Positions 44,656 through 61,508 of a stretch of DNA of 64,000 nt are shown piece after piece. Positions within the stretch are counted from its first letter, which is position 1; every line of letters begins with the position of its first letter. The stretch lies in assembly GCA_013327885.1 (NCBI GenBank), contig JABUMY010000003.1, positions 1 to 64,000 of the forward strand, written 5' to 3'. The DNA is from Flavisolibacter longurius. Lineage in GTDB: Bacteria > Bacteroidota > Bacteroidia > Chitinophagales > Chitinophagaceae. The position numbers and the translations under genes are program-made. The notes below the pieces were generated by a model that searched no databases, was not told where the DNA came from, and saw only the letters and a program-made list of their open reading frames with translations.

Positions 44656-44817
44656 GCCCACCCCGTCCCTCCCGGTGGGAGGGCTCAGATCGAATACACT
44701 GGTTTTGTTGGCCACATTCATTTATTATTCGAGTCGATATCGAATAATAAAAGCTAACTGCAGAAAAAAATAGCATCTTAGTCCTGGGCCCTCCCACCGG
44801 GAGGGGCGGGGTGGGCC
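44655..44817. repeat. Inverted-repeat element (29-bp arms) with internal hairpin
   Basis: Arms at 44655-44683 and 44789-44817 are reverse complements with one mismatch in 29 bases, and each arm itself contains CCTCCC/GGGAGG. The ~105-base middle has a second perfect hairpin (TTATTATTCGA / TCGAATAATAA, 7-base loop). No gene is inside. It is MITE-like in shape but I could not see a target-site duplication. The left arm begins at the last base of the kinase stop codon; the right arm supplies the last codons of queA. Confidence 0.8.
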
Positions 44818-46019
44818 TTCCATAGCAAACTGCTATCTCCATAGCTCAGAAACCTGAATTCATTGTCCATCGCGTACTGGTAAACCTTTTTCCAGTCCTC
44901 ACCAATAAAGGCTGCGATCAATAAAAGCAGCGTGGATTGCGGCTGGTGAAAATTGGTAATGATGCCCGATGGTATCTTAAATGAATAGCCCGGTACGATC
45001 AACAGTGCCGTGCGGCATTCTAGGTTCTCTTTTCCATTTTCCTCCATCCACTGGAGCAAGGCGCCAATACTTTCGGAGTAGGACACAGACTGGTCAAGGT
45101 CATAGGCTTCCCACTGAGTGAGTTGAAATTCTGCTTCCTTCTTCCCCATCAGCAGTTTTACGCCTATCCAGTGCAGGCTTTCTAGCGTACGTAACGAAGT
45201 AGTACCCGCAGCCACGATCGTTTTTGCGGCAAGAATTGCTTTCAATGTGTCCCGCCCCACCGAAAAGGTTTCGTGGTGCATGGTGTGGTCGGCAATGGTG
45301 GCCGTTTTTACCGGCTTGAAGGTACCGGCGCCGACATTGAGGGTGATAAAATTCGGGCTAATTTCTTTTTTCGCCAGGTTGCTGAAAACCGCATCGGTAA
45401 AATGCAAGGAAGCCGTTGGTGCCGCCACCGATCCTTCCTGCCTGGCAAAGATCGTCTGGTAGCGTTCGCTATCCTCCAGTTCTGCACTGCGTTTAATATA
45501 GGGCGGAAGCGGAATGTTTCCCGCGGCATGCAGTAATTGTACAAACTGCAGGTCAGCAGGCGCCCATGAAAAATGAATGGTAAATGCATCAGCCAGCTTT
45601 TCTTTGTACCGGGCTTCCAGCACCACCTCTTTTCCGTCGATCACCAGGCTCTTCTGCAAAACCAATCCCGGTTTCCATTTGGATGCACCGCCGATCATGC
45701 AGGTCCATTCTGTTTCACCCTTTTGTTGCAGCGAAAGTTCCATGCTCTGACCGGCCGGCTCCAGGCAAAAGATCTCGATCACCCCGCCAGTTGCCTTGGT
45801 AAAAAAAATACGGGCTTCAATAACCCTTGTATTGTTCAGTATCAGAGTCGTTTGTTCCGGAAGATGATGGGGGAGGTCGTAAAACCTGCAGGTTTCCATC
45901 TTCCCACTTTTATACACCAGGAGCTTCGATTCGTCCCTTTTCGGCAAGGGATGGTGGGCAATGCGGTCGTCGGGGAGCGTATACGTATAATCCTGAATGA
46001 GAATTTCTTCGTTTTTCAT
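44778..46019 (-). CDS. queA: S-adenosylmethionine:tRNA ribosyltransferase-isomerase
   Basis: The protein has 413 residues from ATG 46019 (MKNEEILIQDYTYTLPDDRIAHHPLPKRDESKLL). Family signatures include TLILNNTRVIEARIFF, TLNVGAGTFKPVKT and GIITNFHQPQSTLLLLIAAFIG. QueA transfers the ribosyl part of SAM to 7-aminomethyl-7-deazaguanine in tRNA during queuosine synthesis, using a conserved C-terminal region that ends near FLSYGDSSLL. Here about 13 further residues (KAHPAPPGGRAQD) are encoded by the right arm of the inverted repeat at 44655-44817 and look like an acquired tail. It is divergent from mraZ. Confidence 0.93.
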   Translation of the reverse strand: MKNEEILIQDYTYTLPDDRIAHHPLPKRDESKLLVYKSGKMETCRFYDLPHHLPEQTTLILNNTRVIEARIFFTKATGGVIEIFCLEPAGQSMELSLQQKGETEWTCMIGGASKWKPGLVLQKSLVIDGKEVVLEARYKEKLADAFTIHFSWAPADLQFVQLLHAAGNIPLPPYIKRSAELEDSERYQTIFARQEGSVAAPTASLHFTDAVFSNLAKKEISPNFITLNVGAGTFKPVKTATIADHTMHHETFSVGRDTLKAILAAKTIVAAGTTSLRTLESLHWIGVKLLMGKKEAEFQLTQWEAYDLDQSVSYSESIGALLQWMEENGKENLECRTALLIVPGYSFKIPSGIITNFHQPQSTLLLLIAAFIGEDWKKVYQYAMDNEFRFLSYGDSSLLWKAHPAPPGGRAQD

Positions 46020-46075
46020 AGTGTTGAACCAGCCTGCTGTCAAGGTTTTACGCTGTAATGTGAATTACTTCGCAG

Positions 46076-46094
46076 TTATCCACAGTTATCCACA
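46076..46094 (+). promoter_or_regulatory. Two perfect tandem DnaA boxes
   Basis: TTATCCACA occurs at 46076-46084 and again at 46086-46094, in direct orientation with a start-to-start spacing of 10 bp, about one helical turn. Both copies match the DnaA-box consensus at all nine bases. AT-rich sequence (TTTTTGTAAAAATTTTC) follows within 20 bases. They lie in the 253-base divergent region between queA and mraZ. They could let DnaA regulate the dcw cluster or queA, or be part of a replication-related site; the sequence alone does not decide. Confidence 0.85.
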
Positions 46095-46211
46095 GGTAAT
46101 GCACATGGCATTTTTGTAAAAATTTTCTTTTTGCCGTGAAACGTAGTGAAATGGCGCACTTTGGTAGTACACAGATGAGTGGAAAACTAAAGCGTTCCAA
46201 ATTCATAAATG

Positions 46212-46239
46212 AAAGTGGTAAAAAGTGTTATTTTGTGTC
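46212..46239 (+). promoter_or_regulatory. Probable MraZ operator: three GTG boxes at 10-bp spacing
   Basis: AAAGTGG, AAAGTGT and TTTGTGT have their GTG triplets at 46215, 46225 and 46235, exactly 10 bp apart, on the same side of the helix. MraZ of other bacteria binds three or more direct repeats with this period in front of its own gene (TGGG-type in E. coli, AAAGTG[GT] in mycoplasmas). The array ends 33 bases before the mraZ ATG and overlaps a TTATTTTG that resembles a -7 box, fitting autoregulation. Inferred by position and pattern. Confidence 0.65.
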
Positions 46240-46272
46240 AAATCAAAGCCCAATTTTCCCAAAGCATTGAAA

Positions 46273-46728
46273 ATGACAGGGTTTCTCGGTGAATACGAAG
46301 TTACACTTGACACAAAAGGTCGCTTTCTCCTCCCGGCTGGCTTAAAAAAGCAATTGCCGGAGGGTGAAAATACGCATTTTGTCATCAACCGTGGCTTCGA
46401 AAAATGCCTGAGTCTTTACCCAAAGCAAAGCTGGGAGCCGGTTTTCAACCGAATCCGCTCTCTCAACACCTTCGACCCGGAGGTCAGAAGTTTTGTCAGG
46501 TATTTTCTGAACGGTGCCCTGGAAGTGGAGATTGATTCGGCCGGTCGACTGCTGCTGCCCCCCAATTTGCGGGAATATGCAGGACTGCAAAAAGACGTGG
46601 TACTGACGTCCGGCGTTGATAAAATTGAGATCTGGAGCAAAGAAGGCTACCAGCAGTTCTTTGATAATTATTCACCATCCGAGTTCAGTTCGCTGGCGCA
46701 AAAAGTAATGGGAGGCGAATCGCTCTAA
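46273..46728 (+). CDS. mraZ: Transcriptional regulator MraZ
   Basis: The protein has 151 residues from ATG 46273 (MTGFLGEYEVTLDTKGRFLLP); an upstream in-frame GTG at 46225 would start inside the predicted operator. Two SpoVT-AbrB-like repeats are visible: EYEVTLDTKGRFLLPAGL and EVEIDSAGRLLLPPNL. MraZ forms a ring that binds tandem repeats in its own promoter and controls the dcw cluster. It is the first gene of the cluster here; rsmH follows one base after the stop. Confidence 0.94.
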   Translation: MTGFLGEYEVTLDTKGRFLLPAGLKKQLPEGENTHFVINRGFEKCLSLYPKQSWEPVFNRIRSLNTFDPEVRSFVRYFLNGALEVEIDSAGRLLLPPNLREYAGLQKDVVLTSGVDKIEIWSKEGYQQFFDNYSPSEFSSLAQKVMGGESL

Positions 46729-46729
46729 A

Positions 46730-47662
46730 ATGAAGGAAGAAAAGAAAATAGCGTCTTCCGAAGCGGTTTACCACGTTCCTGTTTTGCGCAACGAAGTGAT
46801 CGAAGGCCTGGCTATCAAGCCCTCGGGGGTTTATGTGGACTGCACCTTTGGTGGCGGTGGCCATTCCCGGGCCATCCTTGAAAAGCTTGACGGCGATGGA
46901 AAGTTGGTAGCGTTTGACCAGGACACGGATGCCAAAAGAAACCTGCCCGATGACGAGCGGGTGCTTTTTGTTCCGCAAAACTTCCGGCACCTGCACCGCT
47001 TTTTACGCCTGCACGGGATAACCGAAGTGGATGGTGTGTTGGCTGACCTGGGCGTGAGCAGTCACCAGTTTGACGAAGGAAGCCGTGGGTTTTCGACCCG
47101 TTTTGATGCGGCCCTCGACATGCGGATGGACCAGCGGCAGGAAAAAACAGCGGCGGATGTGCTGAAACGGTATTCAGAAGCTGAGCTGCACAAGCTCTTT
47201 GAGCAATGGGGCGAAGTGACTAATTCGCGGACGCTGGCCAAGACCATTGTTGAAAAAAGAACCGTGATGCCGCTGCAGTCGATCGCTGATTTTAAAACGG
47301 CATTGAGTGGTATTGTAAAAGGCAATCCTGCCAAATATTTCGCACAGGTATTCCAGGCGCTGCGCATAGAGGTGAATGACGAGATGGGAGCCCTGAAAGA
47401 ATTGCTGACCCAGTTGCCACAGGTGTTGAAAGTGGGCGGCCGTGCAGCGATCATTACTTTCCACTCGATAGAAGACCGGTTGGTGAAGCAGTTCTTTAAG
47501 GTGAATACGTTTGAAGAAGTAGAGGATCATCCATTTCAAACAACGGAAAAGCTGCGGTTGCTGAAAGTGGTCAACAAAAAGCCCATCGAAGCATCGCAGG
47601 AAGAGTTAAAGCGAAACCCGCGGTCGCGAAGCGCCAAGCTTAGGATCGCAGAGAAGATTTAG
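46730..47662 (+). CDS. rsmH: 16S rRNA (cytosine1402-N4)-methyltransferase
   Basis: The 310-residue protein opens with YHVPVLRNEVIEGLAIKPSGVYVDCTFGGGGHSRAIL (SAM-binding motif I), then GVLADLGVSSHQFDEGSRGFS and ALRIEVNDEMGALKELL, and ends with the usual RNPRSRSAKLR. It methylates N4 of C1402 in 16S rRNA. It lies one base after mraZ, the usual dcw order, so it should be co-transcribed. The TAG stop starts a TTATTGG repeat. Confidence 0.96.
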   Translation: MKEEKKIASSEAVYHVPVLRNEVIEGLAIKPSGVYVDCTFGGGGHSRAILEKLDGDGKLVAFDQDTDAKRNLPDDERVLFVPQNFRHLHRFLRLHGITEVDGVLADLGVSSHQFDEGSRGFSTRFDAALDMRMDQRQEKTAADVLKRYSEAELHKLFEQWGEVTNSRTLAKTIVEKRTVMPLQSIADFKTALSGIVKGNPAKYFAQVFQALRIEVNDEMGALKELLTQLPQVLKVGGRAAIITFHSIEDRLVKQFFKVNTFEEVEDHPFQTTEKLRLLKVVNKKPIEASQEELKRNPRSRSAKLRIAEKI

Positions 47663-47748
47663 TTATTGGTTATTAATTATTGAAAGTAGTTGAAGGTGTA
47701 GGGTGTCAGCTAATAACACAATAACTCAATAACAAATAACTCAAACAC
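47660..47748. repeat. Stop-anchored TTATTGG heptads and their inverted copy
   Basis: After the rsmH stop come TTATTGG, TTATTAA and TTATTGA units; near 47711-47742 the reverse complement type (CAATAACT, CAATAACA) appears four times. The two halves could pair in the mRNA between rsmH and ftsL. Confidence 0.85.
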
Positions 47749-47754
47749 AGCACA

Positions 47755-48078
47755 ATGGAAGAGGTGAAGAAACGAAAATACAAGTGGAAGCGGTGGTTGA
47801 ACTACCAGGCCGTTGTAAAGCAGGTTCCGTTCCTGTTGTTTATGTCGGCGCTGGCGGTGGTGTATATCTATAATGGTCACAATGCCGATAAGCTGATTCG
47901 CAAGACCAGCAAGGCAACAAGAGAATTAAAGGACCTGAAAAGTGAATACAAATCCGTAACCGGCGATGTGCTTTTACGCAGTCGCCAAAGTGAGCTGGTC
48001 GAAGCGGTTAAGCCGCTTGGCCTGCAGGAGCTGACCGTTGAGCCGACCATTTTAATTGACAGTAACAGTAACGAATAA
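47755..48078 (+). CDS. ftsL: FtsL-like cell division protein
   Basis: The 107-residue protein is bitopic: a basic cytoplasmic start (MEEVKKRKYKWKRW), one membrane helix (VPFLLFMSALAVVYIY) and a predicted coiled-coil periplasmic part ending in VKPLGLQELTVEP. Size, topology and position between rsmH and ftsI identify it as FtsL, although the sequence is poorly conserved. FtsL bridges FtsQ/FtsB and FtsI/FtsW in the divisome. Confidence 0.85.
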   Translation: MEEVKKRKYKWKRWLNYQAVVKQVPFLLFMSALAVVYIYNGHNADKLIRKTSKATRELKDLKSEYKSVTGDVLLRSRQSELVEAVKPLGLQELTVEPTILIDSNSNE

Positions 48079-48132
48079 ACGTAAAAACAAGCTTTAGGCT
48101 TGTTCTCATTAAACAAGCGATACAAAGCAAAC

Positions 48133-50247
48133 GTGGACATTAAAAAGGATATATTATGGCGGGCTTACCTAAGCTTCCTGGGGGTTGTCGTCTTCAGCCT
48201 TTTTGTGCTGGGCCGCGCCTTTTATATCCAGAATGTGCAGGGTGAATACTGGCGTGGCCTGTCCGACAGCATGCACCAGAAATACGTGGAGCTGGATGCC
48301 GAGCGGGGAACCATTTTTACCGAAGATGGACAGATGCTTAGTACATCTATACCTTATTACGATATCTATATTGATTTTGGTGCCGAAGGTCTTCGCGACA
48401 AGGCCGGAAAGCGGTTCCGGGAAAACCTGGATTCGTTTGCCATTGCCGTTGCCAACCTTTTCAAGGATAAATCCGTTGCTGCCTACAAGGCCGATCTAAA
48501 ACAGGGTTACAATAAAAAGCGCCGCTATTTCCAACTGCGCAAAGGACTTTCGTTTGAAGAATACAAAGAGTTCAGAACCTTTCCCTTGGTGCGGCTGGGG
48601 CGTAACAAAAGCGGAGTGATTGTAGAAGAGCGCAGCAAGCGCTTAAACCCGTTTGGCCTGCTGGCCCGCAGAACGATTGGGCTTTCCCGTGAGAATGCGC
48701 AGAACGTGGGATTGGAAAGAACTTACGACACCATGCTTGTTGGCCAGAAAGGAAAGCGGCTGGTGCGGATGATGGCCGGCGGTGCAGCTGTTCCCGTGGA
48801 AGGCTACGAAATTGAGCCGGAAAACGGCAAGGATGTTTACACGACGCTGGATATTCACATGCAGGACATCGTGGAAACAGCGCTGATGAAAATGATGGTG
48901 CAAAGCGAATCGCAAACAGGCACCGTCATCCTCATGGAAACCAAAACCGGGAAGATAAAGGCCATTGCCAACCTGGGACGCCTGAAAGACGGCAGCTACA
49001 GTGAAACCATGAACTATGCGCTGCAAACCACGGAGCCAGGGTCTACTATTAAGCTGGCAACATTGCTGGCAGTTCTCGATCATGGCAGCAGCAAAGAAAA
49101 TGATTTGGTGGAAGTGGGTTCTGCCGGTCGGCAGTATGTGGGTGTGCGAAACATCAACGATGCGGAACGTTCGCCCAAGCCGATGCTGACCGTGCGGGAA
49201 TGTTTTGCGCATAGCTCCAATGTGGGCCTGGCAAAAATTGCATACAAAGCCTTTGCCGACAAACCTGATGTATACCGGAATTACCTGCAGAAGTTTCATA
49301 TGGACAAGCCAACCGGCGTTGACCTGTTGGGTGAATCGGCGCCACGTCTTCCCAAGATCAAGCGCAACAAGGAAGGCTTGCACGCCATGCTGACGGCTGC
49401 TTTTGGTTATGCCATCCAGGTAAGTCCTTTGCAAACCCTGATGCTGTACAATGCAGTTGCCAACAATGGCAAAATGATGCGGCCTTACCTTGTTAACAGT
49501 GTCAAGGCAAATGGTGTGACACGCAAAGAATTTTCGCCGGTGGTGTTGGATGAAAACCTGGTAAAGCCTTCTGTTATTGAAGCGGCCAGGCGAAGCATGG
49601 AAGCGGTGATCACCGAAGGAACGGCCAAAAATGTTTTCAAGGATTTTCCCATACCCGTTGCCGGTAAAACCGGGACGGCCCACGTAAGCGACGGAACGGT
49701 GGGTTATGGCGCCGGTGTTTACCAGGCCTCGTTTGCCGGTTATTTTCCGGCCGATAATCCTGAGTATTCCTGTGTGGTGGTGATCAAAACCAAGCCCCAT
49801 GCGGCCATGCACTATGGCGGGCAACTGGCAGCGCCGGTGTTCAAAGAAATTGTGGCCAGCATTTATGCGCAGTATGGCCGTGAACGAAATGCAGGCGTGG
49901 TGAACGTTGTGCCGGATAGTTCATCCTATGTTTTTGCCGGCCGAAAAGAGGAGATGCAACAGGTGTTGCGGTCGCTGAAAATCCGCTACATCGATTCAAT
50001 GCAAAAAGGCGCCTCATTAAGTCAGGTGTACCCGGTGAATTACAAACCGGTGGCAAAGCCGGCTTATTCAGGGGCAAAAAATATAATGCCCGATGTGCGG
50101 TACATGACCCTAAGGGATGCGTTGCACGAACTGGAAAGCCGCAACATAAAAGTAACGGTAAAGGGCAGGGGTAAAGTGGCTGCACAGGATGTGCTTCCCG
50201 GAACCCCGCTGACAAAAAATACGACAGTAACCATTTTATTGAACTAG
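48133..50247 (+). CDS. ftsI: Peptidoglycan transpeptidase FtsI (PBP3-type) with PASTA domain
   Basis: I place the start at GTG 48133, giving 704 residues opening VDIKKDILWRAYLSFLGVVVF, which fits the conserved cytoplasmic start and membrane helix of Bacteroidota FtsI. A TTG at 48100 would add 11 residues. The transpeptidase has nucleophile Ser304 in PGSTIK, then SSN in FAHSSNVGLAK and KTG in VAGKTGTAHVSDG. A C-terminal PASTA-like domain (MPDVRYMTLRDALHELESRNIKV) ends the protein. It cross-links septal peptidoglycan with FtsW. murE begins directly after its stop. Confidence 0.94.
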   Translation: MDIKKDILWRAYLSFLGVVVFSLFVLGRAFYIQNVQGEYWRGLSDSMHQKYVELDAERGTIFTEDGQMLSTSIPYYDIYIDFGAEGLRDKAGKRFRENLDSFAIAVANLFKDKSVAAYKADLKQGYNKKRRYFQLRKGLSFEEYKEFRTFPLVRLGRNKSGVIVEERSKRLNPFGLLARRTIGLSRENAQNVGLERTYDTMLVGQKGKRLVRMMAGGAAVPVEGYEIEPENGKDVYTTLDIHMQDIVETALMKMMVQSESQTGTVILMETKTGKIKAIANLGRLKDGSYSETMNYALQTTEPGSTIKLATLLAVLDHGSSKENDLVEVGSAGRQYVGVRNINDAERSPKPMLTVRECFAHSSNVGLAKIAYKAFADKPDVYRNYLQKFHMDKPTGVDLLGESAPRLPKIKRNKEGLHAMLTAAFGYAIQVSPLQTLMLYNAVANNGKMMRPYLVNSVKANGVTRKEFSPVVLDENLVKPSVIEAARRSMEAVITEGTAKNVFKDFPIPVAGKTGTAHVSDGTVGYGAGVYQASFAGYFPADNPEYSCVVVIKTKPHAAMHYGGQLAAPVFKEIVASIYAQYGRERNAGVVNVVPDSSSYVFAGRKEEMQQVLRSLKIRYIDSMQKGASLSQVYPVNYKPVAKPAYSGAKNIMPDVRYMTLRDALHELESRNIKVTVKGRGKVAAQDVLPGTPLTKNTTVTILLN

Positions 50248-51714
50248 TTGAAAACACTTGCCGACATATTATACAAGGTGCCCATGGTAGCCGTATCGGG
50301 AACAACCGATGTGGTGGTGAGTGGCGTGCAGATCGACAGCCGCAAGGTTTCGCATCGCAGTGTGTTCGTAGCCGTGAGAGGGGTGGCTGCCGATGGTCAT
50401 CGCTTTATCGACAAAGCCATTGACCAGGGTGCGGTGGCCATTGTTTGCGAAGAGGTGCCGACAGAACAGCGGGATGGTGTTACCTATGTGCAGACAAAAA
50501 ACAGTGCGGAAGCCGCCGGTGTACTGGCGCATAATTTTTTCGGGCAGCCATCTTTAAAACTAAAGCTGGTAGGCGTAACTGGGACGAATGGCAAAACCAC
50601 CATTGCCACCCTTTTGTACAAATTATTTACAGCACTTGGCTACCAGTGCGGGTTGATCAGTACGGTGGAGAACATGATCAACGGCAACGTGATTCCGTCC
50701 ACCCATACCACGCCGGATGCCGTAAGTCTGAACGAGCTGTTGAAGCAGATGGTGGATGAAGGATGTGAATATGCGTTTATGGAAGTTAGTTCGCATGCCG
50801 TGCACCAGCACCGTATTGCGGGGGTTAACTTTGTAGGTGGCCTGTTTAGCAACATCACCCACGATCACCTGGATTATCACAAAACATTTGATGAATACAT
50901 AAAGGCGAAGAAAGGTTTCTTCGACGGGCTTCCTGCAAAGGCTTTTGCCATTACCAACCTTGATGACAAACGCGGTGCGGTGATGCTGCAAAACACAGCG
51001 GCAAAAAAGCTTTCGTACAGCCTGCGCACAATGGCCGATTTCAAAGGAAAGATCCTGGAGAACGGGCTTGCCGGGCTGGTCATGACCATCAACGAGCAGG
51101 AGGTGCATTTTCGCCTGATTGGTGAATTCAATGCGTACAACCTGCTAGCCGTATACGGCGCTGCTGTTTCCCTTGGCGAGAATAAGCAGGACGTGTTGCA
51201 GTGCCTGAGCAATATCACCGGTGCCGAAGGCCGTTTTGATTACAGCATTTCGCCAAAGGAAAAAGTGATTGCAATTGTTGATTATGCGCATACGCCGGAT
51301 GCACTGGTGAATGTACTGGCAACGATCAAAAAATTACGGCAGGGGAACGAGCAGGTGATCACAGTGGTGGGTTGCGGCGGCGACAGGGATAAGACCAAGC
51401 GGCCGGTGATGGGAGAAGTGGCTTGTGAGCACAGCGACAAAGTGATCTTCACCAGCGACAACCCGCGTACGGAAGATCCGCAGCAGATCCTTTCGGATAT
51501 GGAAGAGGGGCTATCGGTGACCGCTAAACGTAAATACATTTCCATTACGGATAGAAAGCAGGCCATTAAAACGGCCATTTCCATGGCAGGCCCAGAGGAT
51601 ATTGTGCTGGTTGCGGGTAAAGGCCATGAAAAATACCAGGACATCAATGGCGTAAAACACCATTTCGACGACAAAGAAGTGGTGCAGGAAATGTTTGAAT
51701 TGTTGGGGAAATAG
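50248..51714 (+). CDS. murE: UDP-MurNAc-tripeptide synthetase MurE
   Basis: The protein has 488 residues from a TTG start that abuts the ftsI stop codon (TAGTTG). The opening MKTLADILYKV fits the family, so the TTG is probably real. ATP site VGVTGTNGKTTIATLL, the Lys-containing YIKAKKGFFDG, HTPDALVNVL, and DNPRTEDP are seen. The DNPR motif is the one of meso-diaminopimelate-adding enzymes, so the wall is probably DAP type. It adds the third amino acid of the stem peptide in the cytoplasm. murF does not follow, unlike in E. coli. Confidence 0.95.
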   Translation: MKTLADILYKVPMVAVSGTTDVVVSGVQIDSRKVSHRSVFVAVRGVAADGHRFIDKAIDQGAVAIVCEEVPTEQRDGVTYVQTKNSAEAAGVLAHNFFGQPSLKLKLVGVTGTNGKTTIATLLYKLFTALGYQCGLISTVENMINGNVIPSTHTTPDAVSLNELLKQMVDEGCEYAFMEVSSHAVHQHRIAGVNFVGGLFSNITHDHLDYHKTFDEYIKAKKGFFDGLPAKAFAITNLDDKRGAVMLQNTAAKKLSYSLRTMADFKGKILENGLAGLVMTINEQEVHFRLIGEFNAYNLLAVYGAAVSLGENKQDVLQCLSNITGAEGRFDYSISPKEKVIAIVDYAHTPDALVNVLATIKKLRQGNEQVITVVGCGGDRDKTKRPVMGEVACEHSDKVIFTSDNPRTEDPQQILSDMEEGLSVTAKRKYISITDRKQAIKTAISMAGPEDIVLVAGKGHEKYQDINGVKHHFDDKEVVQEMFELLGK

Positions 51715-51760
51715 TTAATAGCCAGCAGCTGGTAGCGTAAAATAAAAGAAACAAACGTAA

Positions 51761-53038
51761 ATGCTTTATCACATCACAGAATGGTTACAGGCAGAAGGGA
51801 TTCGGTTCCCGGGGATGGGACTCTTGCAGTTCATTACCTCCCGTGTGCTTATTGCCATCCTGTTTTCTTTATTCATTAGTCTTATCTACGGCAAAAAACT
51901 GATTCGCCTGCTGCAAAAAGCGCAGATCGGTGAAAGTGTTCGTGACCTGGGACTGGCCGGTGAGCAGCAAAAGAAAGGCACGCCAACCATGGGAGGGCTT
52001 ATCATCATTGCAGCCATCCTGATACCGACCATATTGCTCGCTGACCTTACTAAAGTGTATGTGCGGCTGATGATCTTTTGTACCATCTGGCTGGGCGCTA
52101 TTGGTTTTCTGGATGATTATTTTAAGATCAGGGCCAAGCGCATTGCACAGAAAAAAGGCATTCCGTATAAAAAAGGTGATGATGATGGACTGGCAGGAAA
52201 GTTCAAGATCTTTGGACAAGTGATGCTGGGCATTGTAGTTGGCGCCACGCTTTATTTTAATCCCAACGTAAAGATCTGGCGTGAATACACGGGCAATCCG
52301 TCTGAATCCAGCGTGCCGGTGCACAAAACTTTTATCAACGGTAAGCAACGCAATTTTGTGGATGCGAAGTCGTTTGTTACAACCATTCCGTTTGTAAAAA
52401 ACCACGAGTTCAATTACTCCAAACTGTTACCGGAATCCTGGCGTGATTATACCTGGGTGCTGTACATCCTGGTGACCATCTTTATTGTAACCGCCGTATC
52501 CAACGGTGCCAACATAACCGATGGACTGGATGGTTTGGCCACCGGAACATCGGCCATTATCTGTGCAACGTTCGGCGTGTTTGCCTATGCCAGCGGCAGC
52601 TTACTGATTGCCGATTATCTCAATATCATGTACATCCCCAACCTAGGCGAGTTGTCGATCTTTATCGGCGCCCTGGTGGGAGCCTGCGTGGGTTTTCTTT
52701 GGTACAATTCTTACCCGGCACAGGTGTTCATGGGCGATACCGGCAGCCTGACGCTGGGTGGCATCATTGCCGCACTGGCTTTTATTATTCACAAAGAGTT
52801 ACTGATACCACTCATTTGCGGTGTTTTCCTGGCGGAGAACCTTAGCGTAGTGGCGCAGGTAGCTTATTTCAAATACACGAAACGGAAGTATGGCGAAGGC
52901 AGGCGGATCCTGTTAATGAGTCCACTGCATCACCACTATCAAAAAAAGGGTTACCACGAAGCAAAGATTGTAACAAGGTTTTGGATCATTACCATCCTTT
53001 GCGCCATTCTTTCCATTGTAACCCTTAAAATACGATAA
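51761..53038 (+). CDS. mraY: Phospho-MurNAc-pentapeptide transferase MraY
   Basis: The 425-residue integral membrane protein makes lipid I from UDP-MurNAc-pentapeptide and undecaprenyl phosphate. [26 protein letters not shown] (Asp-Asp pair), [14 protein letters not shown] and [15 protein letters not shown] are diagnostic. It is about 60 residues longer than the E. coli enzyme. The extra part is mostly a hydrophilic insert near residues 165-235 ([18 protein letters not shown] and on), common in Bacteroidota. It starts 46 bases after murE. Confidence 0.97.
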
Positions 53039-53129
53039 GCGAAAAACCACCATAAAGCAGACCTGTTGAACAACTGGTGTAACGAGTGAAAATAAGGATA
53101 CGTATGAAGAACCAAACCACCCTTGACCG

Positions 53130-54467
53130 ATGAAACAAAAGCTTGTGATTTTAGGTGGCGGCGAAAGTGGCGTAGGCGCGGCGCTCTTGGCAAAAAAGGA
53201 AGGCTATGAAGCGGTGCTGATGGACGAAGGTTCTTTGAAAGACGGGTATCGTAATGAATTAAAAAATGCCGGCATTGCTTTTTTCGAAGGCAGCATTGAT
53301 GAAAGCATTTTGCTGCAGGCAGATGAAGTGGTGAAAAGCCCGGGCATTCCGGAAAAGAGTGTGTGGGTGAAAAAACTGCGGCAAAAGGGCATCCCGGTGG
53401 TCAGCGAAATTGAGCTGGCTTTCCGGCACAAAGGCGATAGCAGGATCATTGCTATCACCGGGAGCAACGGCAAGAGTACCACCACGTCACTGATCTACCA
53501 CATCTGCAAAGAAGCAGGATTGGATTGTGCGCTGGTAGGGAACATTGGTTACTCTTTTGCCAAACAGGTAGCGGAAGATCCAAAGCCGCTGTATGTAGCT
53601 GAGATCAGCTCTTTTCAGTTGGATGACATTGTAACGTTTCGTCCGGATGTAGCGGTGCTGCTCAACATCACCGAAGACCACCTGGACCGGTACGATTACA
53701 AGTTCGAGAACTACATCCGGAGCAAGTTTCGCATTACGATGGCCCAGACCTCAGACGATTATTTTATTTATAACCTGGATGATGAAATTATCACCGGGTA
53801 CATGGAACGAAACCAAATTCACTCAATTCAATTACCAATGAGTATGAAGCAGAAAGTGTCTCAAGGCGGTTACATTCAGCAGGATAACCTGCACATCAAA
53901 ACGGCTTCGGAAGAGCAAAGCATGAGCGTGTATGACTTTGCATTAAAAGGAAAACACAACCAGTACAACACCATGGCAGCAAGCATTGCCGGTGCCACAA
54001 TGGACATCCGGAAAAACAAGATTCGTGAAGCCGTGCAAACGTTCGAAAACCTCGAGCATCGCATGGAGCCTGTGGCCACGGTAAGAGGCGTAGATTTTGT
54101 GAACGACAGCAAGGCGACCAATGTCAACTCAACCTGGTATGCGCTGGAAAGCATGACCAAGCCCACGATACTGGTGCTGGGTGGTGTGGACAAAGGCAAC
54201 GACTATAGCCTCCTCAAAGACCTGGTAGAAGAAAAAGTAAAAGCCATTGTTTGCATGGGTACCGACAATTCAAAGATCCACGAAGCGTTTGATGGCGTGG
54301 TAAAGCTGGTGGACACAGCCAATGCACAGGATGCCGTACAGGCTTCCTTCAGCCTGGCTTCTCCCGGCGACGTGGTGCTGCTAAGCCCAGCCTGTGCTTC
54401 CTTCGACCTGTTTAAAAATTACGAAGACAGGGGAAAGCAGTTTAAGGATGCGGTAAAAAGTTTATAG
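53130..54467 (+). CDS. murD: UDP-MurNAc-L-alanine:D-glutamate ligase MurD
   Basis: The 445-residue protein has LVILGGGESGVGAALLAKKEG at the N-terminus, IAITGSNGKSTTTSLIYH (ATP site), LNITEDHLDRYDYKF and LEHRMEPVATVRGVDFVNDSKATNVNST, all as in MurD. It adds D-glutamate to UDP-MurNAc-L-alanine in the cytoplasm. It follows mraY by about 90 bases. The stop codon TAG opens a repeat. Confidence 0.96.
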   Translation: MKQKLVILGGGESGVGAALLAKKEGYEAVLMDEGSLKDGYRNELKNAGIAFFEGSIDESILLQADEVVKSPGIPEKSVWVKKLRQKGIPVVSEIELAFRHKGDSRIIAITGSNGKSTTTSLIYHICKEAGLDCALVGNIGYSFAKQVAEDPKPLYVAEISSFQLDDIVTFRPDVAVLLNITEDHLDRYDYKFENYIRSKFRITMAQTSDDYFIYNLDDEIITGYMERNQIHSIQLPMSMKQKVSQGGYIQQDNLHIKTASEEQSMSVYDFALKGKHNQYNTMAASIAGATMDIRKNKIREAVQTFENLEHRMEPVATVRGVDFVNDSKATNVNSTWYALESMTKPTILVLGGVDKGNDYSLLKDLVEEKVKAIVCMGTDNSKIHEAFDGVVKLVDTANAQDAVQASFSLASPGDVVLLSPACASFDLFKNYEDRGKQFKDAVKSL

Positions 54468-54541
54468 TTCTCAGTTTACAGTTTTCAGTTTACAGTTGAT
54501 CCTCTCAACGGTAAACAGTGAACGGTAAACTGCAAACGGTT
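54465..54541. repeat. Stop-anchored CAGTTTA heptads and inverted copy, murD-ftsW gap
   Basis: CAGTTTA, CAGTTTT, CAGTTTA in 7-nt phase follow the murD stop; after a short ATCCTC spacer the reverse complement follows (AACGGTAAAC and so on) with a few mismatches over about 28 bases. The pair could form a long hairpin inside the dcw transcript. Confidence 0.88.
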
Positions 54542-54549
54542 TGAAAACA

Positions 54550-55935
54550 ATGAACGAACAACAAGACATAAAATTCACCGACATCGCCCAGAACTTCAAG
54601 GGCAAGGCGCTGCTGCAAAAAACGCAGGGCGACAGGGTGATATGGGCCCTGGTGCTGCTGCTTGGCTTGATGTCCTTGTTAGTGGTGTACAGCGCCACCA
54701 GTTCGTTGGCGTATAAAATGTACAAAGGCAATACAGAGGTTTACCTGTTCAAGCAGATCGCTTTTATTGCCATCGGTTTTGTGATCATCTATTTTGCACA
54801 CAGGGTCAATTATTCACTTTATTCAAAAGTGGCCAAGATCCTGTTTTTACTGTCCATTCCCTTACTGCTGTATACGCTGTTTTTTGGGGTGACCATGAAC
54901 GAAGGAAGCCGCTGGATTCGTCTGCCCATTATCAACCTTACCATGCAGACGTCGGACCTGGCAAAGCTGGCCCTCTTTATGTTCCTGGCCCGAACGCTCA
55001 GCCGCAAGCAGGCCAAGATCAAAGATTTTAAAAAAGGCTTTTTACCGGTGATCATCCCCGTGGGCATCATCTGCCTGCTCATTGCACCGGCCAACCTGTC
55101 AACAGCGCTTTTGCTGGGCGCCAGTTGCCTCTTGCTAATGTTTATTGGCCGTGTCAGCACCAAACATATTTTACTGACGATTGGCTGCGCCATGATACCG
55201 GTAACCCTGTTGATCATGGCCGCCGTTATCAAGCACAAATCAGGTGGCGAAGAAGAGCTTGCCACCGGCACAACAGAAGTAAAAAAAGAATCCCCTTCCC
55301 GGTTAACGGTAAGGGTGAATACCTGGATCGGCCGCGTGGAGAACTTTATGTACGGTTCAACCAATGCGGGTGACGATGATCACTACCAGGTGAACCAGGC
55401 CAAGATCGCCATTGCACGTGGCGGCCTGCTGGGCGAAGGTCCTGGCAACGGCGAAGCACCAAATTTTTTGCCGCAGGCTTACAACGATTATATCTATGCA
55501 ACGCTGATAGAAGAATACGGGCTTCTCGGCGGTGCTTTTATCATATTTATTTACCTGGTGTTCCTGTACAGGAGCATCCGGTTGTTTCAAAAATGCCCGT
55601 TTGCCTTTGGCGCCTTCCTGGCCCTCGGACTCAGTTTTACGCTGGTGATCCAGGCAATGGCCAATATGGCGGTGAACGTAAACCTGTTTCCCGTAACAGG
55701 TGTTACCCTGCCACTGGTGAGTATGGGTGGAAGCAGTTTCCTGTTTACCTGTTTGTCCATCGGCATTATCCTGAGCGTAGCCCGAAACGTGGAGCAGATG
55801 GAAGGTAAAAAAGCGCAGGAAGCAGCTGAAGCAAATAAAGAGTACACCGAAATAGACGGGGAGGAAGAAGAGGAGGATGAGGATGAGACTGAGGAAGAGG
55901 TAGAGAACGAAAAACAAAAACCAGTAATCGCGTAG
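54550..55935 (+). CDS. ftsW: Septal peptidoglycan glycosyltransferase FtsW
   Basis: The protein has 461 residues from ATG 54550. It has about ten membrane helices of the SEDS family: LLLGLMSLLVVYSATS, MNEGSRWIRLPIINLTMQTSDLAK, LLGEGPGNGEAPNFLPQAYNDYIYATLIEEYGLLG and GVTLPLVSMGGSSFL. It polymerises lipid II at the septum together with FtsI. The C-terminal tail is strongly acidic (EIDGEEEEEDEDETEEEVENE) and not needed for the fold. The TAG stop is shared with the palindrome that follows. Confidence 0.95.
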   Translation: MNEQQDIKFTDIAQNFKGKALLQKTQGDRVIWALVLLLGLMSLLVVYSATSSLAYKMYKGNTEVYLFKQIAFIAIGFVIIYFAHRVNYSLYSKVAKILFLLSIPLLLYTLFFGVTMNEGSRWIRLPIINLTMQTSDLAKLALFMFLARTLSRKQAKIKDFKKGFLPVIIPVGIICLLIAPANLSTALLLGASCLLLMFIGRVSTKHILLTIGCAMIPVTLLIMAAVIKHKSGGEEELATGTTEVKKESPSRLTVRVNTWIGRVENFMYGSTNAGDDDHYQVNQAKIAIARGGLLGEGPGNGEAPNFLPQAYNDYIYATLIEEYGLLGGAFIIFIYLVFLYRSIRLFQKCPFAFGAFLALGLSFTLVIQAMANMAVNVNLFPVTGVTLPLVSMGGSSFLFTCLSIGIILSVARNVEQMEGKKAQEAAEANKEYTEIDGEEEEEDEDETEEEVENEKQKPVIA

Positions 55936-55993
55936 GGACACGCCGTGGCGTGTCCGTGAATTTTAAATGCAGGGACATGCTCCTGGCATGTCC
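55932..55993. repeat. Two palindromic repeats TAGGGACAYG, first one includes the ftsW stop
   Basis: GGGACACGCC-GT-GGCGTGTCC (55935-55955) and GGGACATGC-TCCT-GGCATGTCC (about 55972-55993) are two versions of one hairpin. The ftsW stop codon TAG is the TAG of TAGGGACACGCC. Both versions recur after murC. Confidence 0.88.
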
Positions 55994-56016
55994 TCTCAAA
56001 GTGAAGAAACAACAGT

Positions 56017-57114
56017 ATGGCAAAAAGGCTCATTATGGCAGGTGGCGGTACAGGCGGACATATATTTCCGGCCATAGCCATTGCCAATGCGCTGAAAAAA
56101 AAGGACGGTTCCATTGAGATCCTGTTTGTGGGGGCGAAGGGAAAGATGGAGATGGAAAAAGTGCCACAGGCGGGTTATAAAATAGAAGGGTTGGACATAG
56201 CCGGTTTCAACCGGAGCTCTTTGATAAAAAACATAGGCTTGCCTTTTAAGCTGGTGAAAAGTTTTCTCCAAGTGCGGGGAATTTTTAATCGCTTTCAACC
56301 CGATGCCGTTGTTGGCGTTGGCGGTTATTCTTCTTTTCCTGTATTGCGGTATGCGCAGGCAAAAGGCGTTGCTTCGTTTATTCACGAAAGCAATTCGTTT
56401 GCCGGCAAGTCGAATATGCTGCTCGGAAAAGGTGCAACGAAAGTGTTTGTGGCCAGCGATGGCATGGCCTCATTTTTTCCGGCAGAAAAAATTGTGGTGA
56501 CAGGCAATCCCGTAAGGCCGGATATCGTTCAGGTAGACAATGTAAGCCGGGAAGAAGCCTTGCGTTTTTTTAATTTGCAGCCCGGTAAAGAAACCGTGCT
56601 TGTTGTTGGTGGAAGTTTAGGCGCAAGGTCAATCAACGAAGCCATCGCGGCTGGGCTGAATGACCTTCTTGGTGCAGGACTGCAATTGATCTGGCAAACC
56701 GGAAAAACCGATGCTGCGAAATGGAAAGCGGTCGCAGAAGGCAAGGAGGGGGTTTGGGTTGCTGACTTCATCACCAACATGCCGCAAGCCTATGCCGCCG
56801 CCGACATGGTGATCTCACGAGCAGGCGCTATGGCCATTGCGGAACTCTGCCTGGTGAAAAAACCGGTGCTGTTTGTTCCTTATCCTTTTGCTGCGGAAGA
56901 CCACCAGACCGTAAATGCGCAGCACCTGGTACAAAAAGGGGCGGCTCTTATGGTAAAAGACAGCGAGGCGAAAGAAAAAATTGTCCCGGCCATAATTGAA
57001 CTGGCGGGTAATGAAAAAAAACAACAAGACTTTCGAAACAATATTGCCGGATTCGGCGTCAGGGATGCGGATGTAAGAATTGCAGAAGAGATTTTAAAAA
57101 CAATTGGGCGTTAA
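56017..57114 (+). CDS. murG: UDP-GlcNAc:lipid I N-acetylglucosaminyltransferase MurG
   Basis: The 365-residue protein has the N-terminal GGGTGGHIFPAIAIANAL and PDAVVGVGGYSSFPVL, then the C-terminal sugar-nucleotide site ISRAGAMAIAELCLVKKPVLFVPYPFAAEDHQTVNA. It turns lipid I into lipid II at the cytoplasmic face of the membrane. It starts 80 bases after ftsW, past the palindromes, and murC follows 11 bases after its stop. Confidence 0.97.
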   Translation: MAKRLIMAGGGTGGHIFPAIAIANALKKKDGSIEILFVGAKGKMEMEKVPQAGYKIEGLDIAGFNRSSLIKNIGLPFKLVKSFLQVRGIFNRFQPDAVVGVGGYSSFPVLRYAQAKGVASFIHESNSFAGKSNMLLGKGATKVFVASDGMASFFPAEKIVVTGNPVRPDIVQVDNVSREEALRFFNLQPGKETVLVVGGSLGARSINEAIAAGLNDLLGAGLQLIWQTGKTDAAKWKAVAEGKEGVWVADFITNMPQAYAAADMVISRAGAMAIAELCLVKKPVLFVPYPFAAEDHQTVNAQHLVQKGAALMVKDSEAKEKIVPAIIELAGNEKKQQDFRNNIAGFGVRDADVRIAEEILKTIGR

Positions 57115-57125
57115 CTAACTGCTAC

Positions 57126-58553
57126 ATGAATGGAATAGTAAACATACAGGACATTGTAAACGCTGAAGCAAAGCATGTTTATTTTATTGGGATCGGTGGT
57201 ATTGGCATGAGTGCTTTGGCCCGTTACTTTCGGTCGCTGGGTGTGCAGGTAAGCGGGTATGATAAAACGGAAACGGCGCTGACGAAAGAATTGGTGAAAG
57301 AAGGCATCTCGATTCACTATACCGAAGATGTGGACCAGATCCCGAAAGAAGTGGCGCTGGTAGTGTACACGCCGGCAATGCCAAAAGACCATGCGGAATT
57401 GGTGTACTACCAACAGCACGGTTACCCGGTAGTAAAGCGCAGCGATGTGTTGCAGGGCATCAGCAACCATTCGTTCAATATCTGTATTGGTGGTACGCAT
57501 GGTAAAACAACCGTTACGACCATGACGGCACACCTGCTGCGTCACAGCGGTTATGGCTGCAATGCATTTTTAGGAGGCATTGCTTCCAACTACGGCACCA
57601 ATTTCTGGAGCAGCGAGAATAACGTGAGTGTGATTGAAGCTGACGAATATGATAGGAGCTTTTTGAAATTAAGTCCCGATATCGCCGTCATCACAGCTAT
57701 GGATGCCGATCACCTCGATATCTATGGCGATGAAAAAACATTGCAGGATACCTACGTGGCATTTGGCAGCAAAGTGAAAGAGGGTGGACTGCTGATTGGC
57801 AAGTTTGGCCTGGCCCGTTTGAAAGAAACCGGTGTGGCCCGTCGCTGGACCTACAGCCTGCAAAACGATGCAGCTGATATTTTTGCAGCCAATATTAAAA
57901 TAGATGACGGTGGTTATCGTTTTGATGTACACCTGAAGGATAAGATCATTGCAGATTGCAGTCTCCGCGTTGGCGGGATGCACAACGTGGAGAATGCGGT
58001 AGCGGCTATTGCCGTGGCCGATGCGCTGGAGATCGATAGCGAAAAGATCAAAGCGGCCCTGGCCGATTTCAAAGGGGTGAAGCGACGGTTTGAATACAGC
58101 ATTCCGCCGAAAAAGATCAGCGGAAGCACCTTTGTTCAACCGGTTTTGGTCGATGATTATGCGCATCATCCCGAGGAGTTAAGAGCTTTGCTTTCGAGTG
58201 TCAGGACCTTGTTCCCGCAGCGAGTGGTGACCGTCATCTTTCAGCCGCACTTGTTTTCAAGAACCCGCGACTTCGCCGATGGATTTTCCAGCGTGTTGTC
58301 TTTAGCCGACAGGGTGATCCTTTTGCCGATCTACCCGGCAAGGGAGCAACCTATTGAAGGCGTGACCAGCGAGATGTTGCTGCAGGGTGTGGAAAGAGAC
58401 GATAAGCAGGTGTTGTCGAAAGAAGAGATGCTGGCCTGGATGGAAAAGCACGCCCAAAACCTTAACAAGGAGTTTGGTGAGGTGATTGTGATGGCAGGCG
58501 CCGGTGACATTGATGCGCTGGTGGAGCCGGTGAAGAAGTTATTGGGTTATTAG
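57126..58553 (+). CDS. murC: UDP-MurNAc:L-alanine ligase MurC
   Basis: The 475-residue protein has YFIGIGGIGMSALARYF, then the ATP site CIGGTHGKTTVTTMTAHLL, the EADEYDRSFLKL motif, DHLDIYGDEKTL and VDDYAHHPEELRALLSSVR. It adds L-alanine to UDP-MurNAc. The last codons (LLGY and stop) read TTATTGGGTTATTAG and thus already belong to the TTATTGG repeat that continues after the stop. Confidence 0.97.
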   Translation: MNGIVNIQDIVNAEAKHVYFIGIGGIGMSALARYFRSLGVQVSGYDKTETALTKELVKEGISIHYTEDVDQIPKEVALVVYTPAMPKDHAELVYYQQHGYPVVKRSDVLQGISNHSFNICIGGTHGKTTVTTMTAHLLRHSGYGCNAFLGGIASNYGTNFWSSENNVSVIEADEYDRSFLKLSPDIAVITAMDADHLDIYGDEKTLQDTYVAFGSKVKEGGLLIGKFGLARLKETGVARRWTYSLQNDAADIFAANIKIDDGGYRFDVHLKDKIIADCSLRVGGMHNVENAVAAIAVADALEIDSEKIKAALADFKGVKRRFEYSIPPKKISGSTFVQPVLVDDYAHHPEELRALLSSVRTLFPQRVVTVIFQPHLFSRTRDFADGFSSVLSLADRVILLPIYPAREQPIEGVTSEMLLQGVERDDKQVLSKEEMLAWMEKHAQNLNKEFGEVIVMAGAGDIDALVEPVKKLLGY

Positions 58554-58631
58554 TTATTTGGTTATTGGTAGGGACACGCCGTGGCATTTCCTGATAAATA
58601 AAAAACGTAGGGACATGCTCCTGGCATGTCT
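58546..58631. repeat. TTATTGG heptads running into TAGGGACAYG palindromes, murC-ftsQ gap
   Basis: TTATTGG-like units start in the last codons of murC and pass through its stop. They are followed by TAGGGACACGCCGTGGC (second arm degenerate: GGCATTTCC) at about 58569-58591 and by GTAGGGACATGC-TCCT-GGCATGTC at 58607-58630. Confidence 0.85.
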
Positions 58632-58652
58632 TTCCGGAAAAAATATAAAAAT

Positions 58653-58671
58653 GCGAATTCGTGTAATTCGC
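58653..58671. repeat. Small palindrome upstream of ftsQ
   Basis: GCGAATT-CGTGT-AATTCGC, 7-bp arms and 5-base loop, about 20 bases before the ftsQ start. It lies inside a 12-codon open frame (ATG 58651 to TGA 58687-58689) which could be a leader peptide but is not supported further. Confidence 0.45.
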
Positions 58672-58692
58672 GAAAAAATTAGTGTTTGAATT

Positions 58693-59850
58693 TTGCGCTT
58701 TAAAAGACCCATATACCGTTATTTGTTTTACACCGCCTGGCTGGCAGCCGTTGGCGGCGTGATCTTTCTTTTGGTTTCGGCCAACAGCAAATCCAAAACC
58801 CGTACGGTAAAAGGAGTGGAAGTTTCGGTAAACAACGGCGGCGACCGGATCTATGTAGAAAAGGCCGATGTGCTGAAAAACATTGAGGCCACGGCTGGCG
58901 GTCGACTGGTTTCCCGCAACAGCGGCAACCTGAACCTGGCTTTGCTGGAAAGCGGCCTGGAGAAAAATCCCTGGATACAGGATGCGGAACTTTATTTTGA
59001 TACCAAAGACGTTTTACACGTAGCCATTACCGAAAGAGTACCCTTTGCCCGGGTGTTTACCACGGCGGGAAGCTCTTTTTATATCGACAGCACCGGCCAC
59101 AAACTGCCCCTGCTGGAGAACTATAGCGTAAAACTCCCGGTAGTGACCGGCTTTACACCGGCCAAAAAGCTGAACAAGGCCGACAGCACACTGTTGCAGG
59201 AAACAAAAGAAGTGGTGCGTACCATTAGCGAAGATGCTTTCTGGAATGCGCAGGTAGGCCAGATAGACATTACGCCGGAGCGAAAGTTTGAGTTGATTCC
59301 CCTGGTGGGTAACCATGTGATCCGGCTGGGCTCGGGGTACAACACGGCGGAAAAACTGGAAAAGCTGATGGTGTTTTACCGGCAGGTATTGCCAAAGGCT
59401 GGTCTTGCTAAATACAGTGCGCTGGATGTGCAGTTCAACAATCAGGTGGTGGCTGTCAGGAGAGGGCCTACCAACAAAGTGGATTCTATCCAACTGCAGA
59501 AAAATATTAAAGAGCTGTTAGAGAAAAAAATGGCTGAGCAGGAGCCAACAGACCTCGTGCAAACGGTGCAGCCGGCACCGGCTCTTTCAAACGGCGATTT
59601 TGAACCCGGGCCTGCCAACGGCGGCGCCGCCATCGCCCCGCTGCCCGAAACACAAAAAGCAGTCGTTCCGGAAACACTGGCTGCCGCCAAAGAAGTTCAA
59701 ACGGCAAAGAAGCCAGCCGATATCCAATCCACTCCTAAGAAAACCGAAACGAACAAGTCCAAACCCGAAAGAAAACCAGTCGTCGCGAAAAAAGCCCCGG
59801 CACAAAAGCCAAAAGCTGTTATGCCGGCTACCGCGTCGAACGAGTATTGA
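58693..59850 (+). CDS. ftsQ: Cell division protein FtsQ
   Basis: The protein has 385 residues from TTG 58693. A stop at 58687-58689 lies just upstream in frame and no ATG follows before the conserved part, so the TTG is almost forced. Topology: short basic start (RFKRPIYRYLF), one membrane helix, a POTRA-like segment (VEVSVNNGGDRIYVEKADVLKNI) and the FtsQ beta domain with LHVAITERVPFARVF. Residues from about 285 are a Pro/Lys/Ala-rich, disordered-looking extension not usual in E. coli FtsQ. It scaffolds the FtsL/B complex. No ddl gene precedes it. Confidence 0.85.
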   Translation: MRFKRPIYRYLFYTAWLAAVGGVIFLLVSANSKSKTRTVKGVEVSVNNGGDRIYVEKADVLKNIEATAGGRLVSRNSGNLNLALLESGLEKNPWIQDAELYFDTKDVLHVAITERVPFARVFTTAGSSFYIDSTGHKLPLLENYSVKLPVVTGFTPAKKLNKADSTLLQETKEVVRTISEDAFWNAQVGQIDITPERKFELIPLVGNHVIRLGSGYNTAEKLEKLMVFYRQVLPKAGLAKYSALDVQFNNQVVAVRRGPTNKVDSIQLQKNIKELLEKKMAEQEPTDLVQTVQPAPALSNGDFEPGPANGGAAIAPLPETQKAVVPETLAAAKEVQTAKKPADIQSTPKKTETNKSKPERKPVVAKKAPAQKPKAVMPATASNEY

Positions 59851-59885
59851 GTGCCGCTGCTTATTCAACAGGGCAGCAGCGAAAG

Positions 59886-59968
59886 ATGAATAATAAGTGA
59901 TGAGTAAAGAATAATGAGTGGTGAATGAAAGCAGAAAAAAACACTCATCACTGACCACTCATTAGTAA
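59886..59968. repeat. AGTNNNN-type repeat and inverted copy, ftsQ-ftsA gap
   Basis: GTGATGAGTAAAGAATAATGAG and GAGTGGTGAATG run forward; CACTCATCACTGACCACTCATT follows as an approximate reverse complement. The two halves could pair. The array starts about 36 bases after the ftsQ stop. Confidence 0.75.
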
Positions 59969-60002
59969 TCAAAACTGTCAACAACTAAAAACAACATACA
60001 AC

Positions 60003-61379: not shown

Positions 61380-61508
61380 TTGAAAAGACGCAAGTGACAA
61401 TTGGCACCATTTTGCCTGTTGCACTTGCTCATTGCAAATTGAACAAACCATCCTCCACCAAAAATCTCAACCGCTGCCGCTGTAGGCGACAGCACAAAAC
61501 GTTTTTTT

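Follow-up and report, generated by a model that had tools for sequence, protein, structure and literature searches.

Organization of the queA–mraZ region

The window (the whole stretch of DNA that was analysed, 64,000 nucleotides in length) harbors a dcw cluster whose first gene is mraZ (46273–46728, + strand), identified by a score of 129 bits against TIGR00242 with a cut-off of 98.35. The remaining cluster, rsmH to ftsZ, occupies 46730–63383 (+), and the genes following mraZ are arranged in one direction in the order rsmH, a Bacteroidota-type ftsL, a PBP at the ftsI position, murE, mraY, a MurD-type Mur ligase, an FtsW-family protein, a MurG-type transferase, a second Mur ligase at the murC position, an ORF without family match at the ftsQ position, ftsA and ftsZ. 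The ORF at the ftsQ position (58693–59850, 385 aa) had no match in either Pfam (searched up to 1e-5) or NCBIfam (up to 1e-10). The divergent neighbour of mraZ is queA (44778–46019, − strand), which lies outside the conserved unit; a queA leader RNA was also sought, with no Rfam match up to E 1 within 45700–46500.

The initial annotation of the intergenic region had described two perfect TTATCCACA boxes 10 bp apart and, further on, three GTG repeats exactly 10 bp apart before mraZ, and both patterns were found as described. The perfect pair lies between queA and mraZ on the + strand at 46076–46084 and 46086–46094, 10 bp from start to start, and represents rungs −149 and −139 of an array (counted from the middle MraZ repeat), the latter being occupied with at most one mismatch in 16 of 32 family loci. 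A weak DnaA box, TAATGCACA (46097–46105, +), takes the next rung at −128, while a weak inverted box, TAATTCACA (46059–46067, −), is found at −166, a position used in 4/32 loci. The MraZ operator, AAAGTGGTAAAAAGTGTTATTTTGTGTC (46212–46239, +), carries its GTG direct repeats at 46215, 46225 and 46235, the first of them 121 bp past the second perfect box. Contained in the operator is TTATTTTG (46228–46235, +), which matches the Bacteroidota −7 promoter consensus TAnnTTTG at 7/8 positions and is a candidate −7 promoter element of mraZ.

An inverted DnaA-type box, TTTTCCACT (46178–46186, −), designated box C, is located 47 bp before the middle MraZ repeat with one mismatch, which in the window genome is terminal. 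This inverted box was overlooked in the initial annotation and is the most constant element of the layout. A further element, module B (GTGAAACGTAGTGAAAT, 46136–46152, no strand assigned), is kept in 17 loci of the genus and is weaker across the family, where loci outside the genus hold other AAA-centred words at its position. Module B comprises two GTG 10 bp apart and reads TACGTTTC on its minus strand, possibly a −7 element of queA; it may be either a further site for MraZ or part of the queA promoter.

The number of boxes in the window is by itself not significant, as 2 perfect boxes were counted against 0.42 in shuffled sequence and at least two were obtained in 7 of 100 shuffles. Genome-wide, TTATCCACA is present in 47 copies, compared with 27 for the reversed word and about 44 by a uniform-base estimate, and with no enrichment it was dismissed as a chromosome-wide signal word. 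The window count alone would also permit a chance pair, against which conservation argues. Relatives were examined since this count was indecisive, and what goes beyond chance is the clustering of the boxes together with their conservation.

Conservation and geometry of the boxes upstream of mraZ

The DNA upstream of mraZ was compared among 35 genomes of the family, 17 from other families within the order and 25 from other orders using the DnaA box pattern, TTWTNCACA. Loci were chosen as best mraZ matches (30 of 55 plus the other 25, and the best 80 of 533 in a named collection), because of which close relatives are over-represented; the set of other orders consists of 30 loci (109 genomes matched) minus 3 repeats and 2 moved to the family. 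Boxes fitting the pattern lie near the mraZ promoter, within 350 bp upstream of the gene, in 33/35 family genomes, amounting to 72 boxes in 12.25 kb against 3.0 in shuffles (maximum 9, 200 rounds). The other families of the order have exact boxes in 9/17 loci (11 boxes against 1.1 shuffled, maximum 4), and the other orders are at chance with 3 boxes in 3/25 loci against 1.4 shuffled (maximum 5). The density of 5.9 boxes per kb before family mraZ compares with 0.135 per kb for 40 stretches sampled from two genomes. The reversed-word control gave 31, 8 and 0 matches in the family, the other families and the other orders versus the 72, 11 and 3 boxes; 29/31 and 6/8 of the reversed matches in the first two sets fell into the last 80 bp, the site of the MraZ operator, and beyond these 80 bp the reversed word counted 2 versus 61 boxes in the family and 2 versus 7 in the other families.

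The layout was then defined on 98 loci from Chitinophagaceae and the nearest mraZ relatives, 32 from the family set and 66 from the named collection, and consists of array A, box C and the MraZ operator in this order. Three of the 35 family loci lacked a good MraZ anchor and were left out (G033 and G021, which have a box C-like site, and G027, which has none), and of the 80 named loci 4 with less than 300 bp upstream and 10 repeats of earlier genomes were left out. Among the named-collection matches listed, the close relatives are Flavisolibacter species and the wider ones are largely Chitinophagaceae; since some of the 66 named loci go under broad or doubtful names (‘Williamsia’ in one case), their family membership was deduced from mraZ similarity.

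Array A is composed of head-to-tail TTATNCACA boxes in steps of about 10.6 bp, of which the rungs swap among species with the phase being kept. With the middle MraZ repeat as anchor, the rungs of the 32 family loci stand near −170, −160, −149, −139 and −128 on one strand, and the distances between boxes of the same genome cluster at 10–11, 20–22, 31–33 and 42–44 bp. Between −200 and −100 of the 98 loci, 231 plus-strand boxes with at most one mismatch were counted against 15.9 in dinucleotide shuffles (maximum 28, 300 rounds), together with 12 minus-strand boxes against 4.4 (maximum 11). Phased distances account for 186/194 box pairs, compared with 0.2 of 0.7 in shuffles, and neighbouring boxes are separated by steps of 11 bp (50), 10 bp (33) or 12 bp (1). 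At least two array boxes are carried by 80/98 loci versus 1.1 in shuffles, and the 2.36 array boxes per 109-bp piece compare with 0.04 in a coding control. The top de novo 6-mers are themselves pieces of the box, headed by ATCCAC (77 loci versus 4.2) and followed by TATCCA and ATTCAC. The array is weak in G019, G022, G023 and G030, and G027 is without any exact box.

Box C, an inverted box of TTWTNCACA type, is found at −46 to −48 relative to the middle MraZ repeat in 97/98 loci, the search having taken the best match near the anchor with ties resolved to −47. It fits TTWTNCACA exactly in 88/98 loci; its third base is T or A in 98/98, and its fifth base is C in 92, A in 3 and G in 3. Considered separately, the family loci hold the position in 31/32, with G029 as the exception at −65, and the 66 loci from the other collection replicate it in 66/66, along with 118/121 box-pair distances of up to 45 bp falling into the known distance classes. 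The distance from operator to mraZ is likewise near constant (45–54 bp in the 66 loci), so box C is not alone in having a fixed place there. In the 10 of 98 loci with a mismatched box C, the window genome included, exact array boxes are more numerous (1.4 versus 0.66, p 0.007, kinship ignored), hinting that a degenerate box C is offset by a richer array as a form of affinity compensation.

In pairwise comparison, the spacers separating array and box C are 34% identical in the median (best of five shifts), which is about random, so that descent alone is insufficient to explain the layout. After collapsing loci with at least 60% spacer identity, 78 clusters remained, of which 77 have box C and 62 have at least two array boxes, and 134/142 pair distances were still phased. 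The boxes are in this respect conserved beyond neutral expectation. The conservation of the tandem boxes among Chitinophagaceae, which the initial annotation had set as a check, was borne out for a phased array and an inverted box and failed for the exact pair of perfect boxes 10 bp apart, which among the 35 genomes occurs at mraZ in G000 and G009 only.

Six further order-level loci were inspected, with a box before mraZ in G035, G041, G047 and G118 and no box before mraZ in G051 and G055 (weak mraZ match); the family member G145 has TTATCCACA plus an inverted TTTTCCACA before mraZ. As the array is mostly missing outside the family, it represents a lineage trait. Loci of other Chitinophagales families (L106, L109, L112, L113, L119, L121 and L160) show a lone inverted TTWTCCACA before the MraZ operator and no array, and box C may be the older part of the layout, with the array as a later addition in Chitinophagaceae.

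Two patterns were searched through all 35 genomes. The pattern TTATNCACA-N65-95-GTGGAWAA returned 39 rows (palindromic pairs being counted on both strands), 27 of them at mraZ in 19 genomes and 12 elsewhere, against 8 for the reversed control, with mraZ located in 33/35 genomes. One of the 12 rows away from mraZ, in G005, lies in DNA resembling the nadA origin described below. The tandem pattern TTATNCACA-N1-13-TTATNCACA returned 26 rows, of which 10 lie at mraZ (9 genomes), 2 in origin-like DNA and 14 elsewhere, against 9 for its reversed control. By these two patterns the mraZ locus is the most recurrent DnaA-box cluster, ahead of oriC, the orthology of the other hits being partly checked: two of the 14 tandem pairs elsewhere (G000 C6 and G010 C42) were examined and differ in gene context, and two more were inspected as sequence. 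A 21-base tandem, TTATGCACAAATTTATTCACA, is common to G010 C42:20031–20051 (L250) and G016 C36:19266–19286, and is flanked in G010 by lpxD-type and yicC-type genes; the two copies may be orthologous and may mark another DnaA-box locus. In G000 (C21:5697–5747, L063) an inverted pair of perfect TTATCCACA boxes 42 bp apart was seen downstream of an ORF that by eye is tyrosine-recombinase-like, and it is probably mobile DNA.

Candidate binding proteins and chromosomal setting

Words of the form CACA in the array region, chosen without regard to the rest of the box (n = 212), are flanked by TTAT and a free base: the T next to the free base is present in 200 words and the A one place further out in 174, the respective counts for downstream CACA words (n = 350) being 126 and 47. 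The genome encodes one DnaA above the family cut-off, and its domain IV aligns over 83 residues with E. coli 1j1v, the DnaA–DnaA box complex, with GGRDHTTV identical, indicating an intact box-binding domain. The same boxes fill oriC. TTATCCACA has been called the DnaA box consensus in the account of PMC6727663. Judged from sequence, DnaA very probably binds in this region.

It can be conceived that the boxes are extra MraZ sites instead, given that the array read on its other strand shows GTG every 10–11 bp, resembling the MraZ operator, and that an E. coli MraZ site overlaps the DnaA box of the mioC promoter according to PMC4446571. The units of array and box C differ, however, from the MraZ repeats in sequence: at the second position following GTG, A is present in 5/294 MraZ units versus 200/212 array words (and in 229/231 box-selected array units, a partly circular count), and the third position is A in 284/294 MraZ units as opposed to T in 174/212 array words. 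The geometry is also different, for the −10 MraZ repeat, which was unused for anchoring, is exactly 10 bp off in 98/98 loci whereas the array steps vary, and box C is offset from the phase of the MraZ repeats by roughly half a turn. Extra MraZ sites are on this evidence quite unlikely. Another regulator with DnaA-box-like specificity could be imagined at the array and box C, but the derived motif is the DnaA box down to its free fifth base and its A/T third base, and oriC is filled by the same boxes, which leaves such a regulator very improbable.

The replication origin was placed by skew and boxes upstream of nadA and not beside dnaA. In the complete genome G034, GC skew (calculated from 20 sampled stretches per genome, about 6% of each) is negative in 11/11 stretches up to 2.386 Mb, and from 2.45 Mb on 6/9 stretches are positive and 3/9 negative; TTATCCACA occurs there 28 times on the plus and 4 times on the minus strand up to 2.41 Mb and 13 and 28 times beyond. 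Seven TTWTNCACA boxes are packed in the 252 bp upstream of nadA at the skew turn of G034. A homologous nadA upstream region with TATTACTATTA is found in G000, G003 and G013, with fewer exact boxes than in G034 and followed by a peptidyl-prolyl-isomerase-like gene, nadA in G013 being assigned by sequence homology only. The likely oriC has a pattern of the conserved TATTACTATTA, then a GGTGTGAAT-like word and DnaA boxes, and is situated at C22:326.05–326.80 kb in G000 (L062 8050–8800), C1:2375.6–2375.9 kb in G034 (L074 9590–9890), L098 8840–9470 in G003 and near 7230 of L155 in G013. The family oriC is therefore likely upstream of nadA, a by-product of the present analysis.

The location of mraZ with respect to this origin, 387 kb away in G034, 992 kb in G013 and 1.50 Mb in G003, bears on the readings in which the boxes serve the chromosome and not the gene. 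The initial annotation had considered that the locus might be near the origin and had proposed GC skew as a check; the turning point is at nadA, 0.3–0.4 Mb off mraZ in G034, with the weak skew of G003 only consistent, and the suggestion was not upheld. Phased DnaA arrays do resemble parts of oriC, yet with the skew turn and the seven-box cluster of G034 at nadA and the recurrence of the TATTACTATTA region in G000, G003 and G013, it is hardly credible that the mraZ region serves, or once served, as a replication origin. A cluster of DnaA boxes away from oriC could also denote a titration or reactivation site of datA or DARS type, incidental to this intergenic region. Sites of that type are position-bound relative to oriC, whereas the position of the mraZ boxes relative to oriC varies in the three genomes, therefore implying that the boxes go with the gene rather than with a fixed place on the chromosome; with the place of box C before the MraZ operator also held in 97/98 loci, a titration site is unlikely. 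As for the divergent gene, the array starts 57 bp upstream of the queA start codon, closer than to mraZ, and queA is upstream in 27/35 family loci, so the boxes might regulate queA and not the dcw cluster. Against this, box C adjoins the mraZ operator, and G034, G018 and G073, which are among the 8/35 family loci having no queA in the 1.0–1.5 kb upstream, retain 5, 3 and 4 exact boxes (the others without queA being G022, G030, G033 and G021 with one box, box C, and G027 with none). Regulation of queA alone is distinctly unlikely, though the boxes may control queA and mraZ jointly.

Proposed control of the dcw cluster and known precedents

The preferred reading is that a composite operator heads the dcw cluster, at which DnaA, bound cooperatively to the array and box C, would together with MraZ control transcription from mraZ to ftsZ; we regard this as probable from the arrangement of the sites. 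Cooperative filling of the phased array A by DnaA, much as in a low-affinity array of oriC, can be presumed because closely packed sites support cooperative DnaA binding in E. coli oriC; DnaA would also contact box C, which is inverted and precedes the likely start site of mraZ by about 60 bp. The candidate −7 element TTATTTTG follows box C at a distance of about 50 bp. MraZ on its own three repeats would cover the likely promoter and repress it, while the level or nucleotide state of DnaA may adjust transcription of mraZ-rsmH-ftsL-...-ftsA-ftsZ, and replication initiation could thereby be coupled to the supply of wall and division gene products. Occupancy by DnaA, its effect on transcription and the sign of that effect are what we infer from the layout. 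Class-I activators typically act from a position matching the place of box C, and because of this, DnaA is considered slightly more likely to activate, or to relieve repression by MraZ, than to repress.

That DnaA controls the dcw cluster is likely. Of the link between the two drawn in the initial annotation, the part that stands is a pattern in the DNA, kept in the family and tied to mraZ. That Chitinophagaceae possess a dedicated DnaA switch, in which a helically phased, filament-forming array and a fixed inverted box beside the MraZ operator would set the expression of the whole wall-and-division cluster according to the activity of the replication initiator, is a proposition we consider evenly balanced. 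Since the mraZ locus is the most recurrent DnaA-box cluster, division control could be a main transcriptional job of DnaA in this lineage. Selection appears to keep a precise layout of DnaA sites before a complete dcw cluster in nearly every family locus examined. The tie between the start of replication and division is an open question in bacteria, in which DnaA has come under suspicion of acting through transcription, and the layout suggests a direct replication-to-division switch in a family of soil and water bacteria. A search of titles and abstract beginnings found no report of DnaA boxes before mraZ in Bacteroidota nor of the composite arrangement; few subscription papers were covered, and the negative is therefore weak evidence of absence.

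Precedents for DnaA at division genes call for some caution. By the account of PMC8203912, no major impact of DnaA transcriptional activity on the timing of cytokinesis has been shown in any species, and three DnaA boxes upstream of E. coli ftsZ were later shown to be without role in its transcription. The latter case is a warning against reading boxes as dcw control, although the E. coli ftsZ boxes are inside genes (ftsQA) and those of Chitinophagaceae are at the head of the dcw cluster. The 434 bp preceding mraZ in E. coli K-12 are free of exact TTATNCACA matches and contain a single TTTTCCACA, at −244. In Caulobacter crescentus, DnaA is described at ftsZ, mipZ and gcrA and was proposed as a direct activator of ftsZ (PMC8203912); there it acts at the promoters of single genes, whereas in Chitinophagaceae the sites precede a complete dcw cluster beside MraZ.

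The likeness to Bacillus subtilis consists in an operon that contains dcw genes and has DnaA at its promoter, as B. subtilis DnaA is bound in vivo at the ftsL promoter region by ChIP (PMC8203912, citing Goranov 2005). The main text of an in vitro DnaA map of B. subtilis names no ftsL, yllB or mraZ (PMC4447404), and upon replication arrest RsmH and PbpB of the ftsL operon looked unchanged, with FtsL undetected, in the data described in PMC11019786. Binding at ftsL is thus documented by ChIP with no major effect on division timing established, while the Chitinophagaceae case is known from sequence alone; the latter differs in its phased array and fixed inverted box heading the whole cluster, in a different phylum.

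The MraZ operator of Chitinophagaceae is ordinary when set beside the GTG-core direct repeats before mraZ described for E. coli and Mollicutes (PMC8475190), and it is the DnaA boxes beside it that set it apart. The nearest precedent for a DnaA box and a MraZ site in one promoter is E. coli mioC, where the sites overlap and the gene adjoins oriC; in Chitinophagaceae they are separate, ordered, far from oriC and before mraZ. With regard to the array, E. coli oriC low-affinity arrays have sites 2 bp apart which support cooperative DnaA binding (PMC6727663), a step that by our sum is about 11 bp, and neighbouring boxes in Chitinophagaceae are mostly separated by 1–2 bp; the Chitinophagaceae array differs in having many consensus boxes and in being at a promoter rather than an origin. 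Overall, the proposed system belongs to a known class, in which DnaA acts on division genes as a transcription factor, and is presented here in an unusually clear and conserved architecture.
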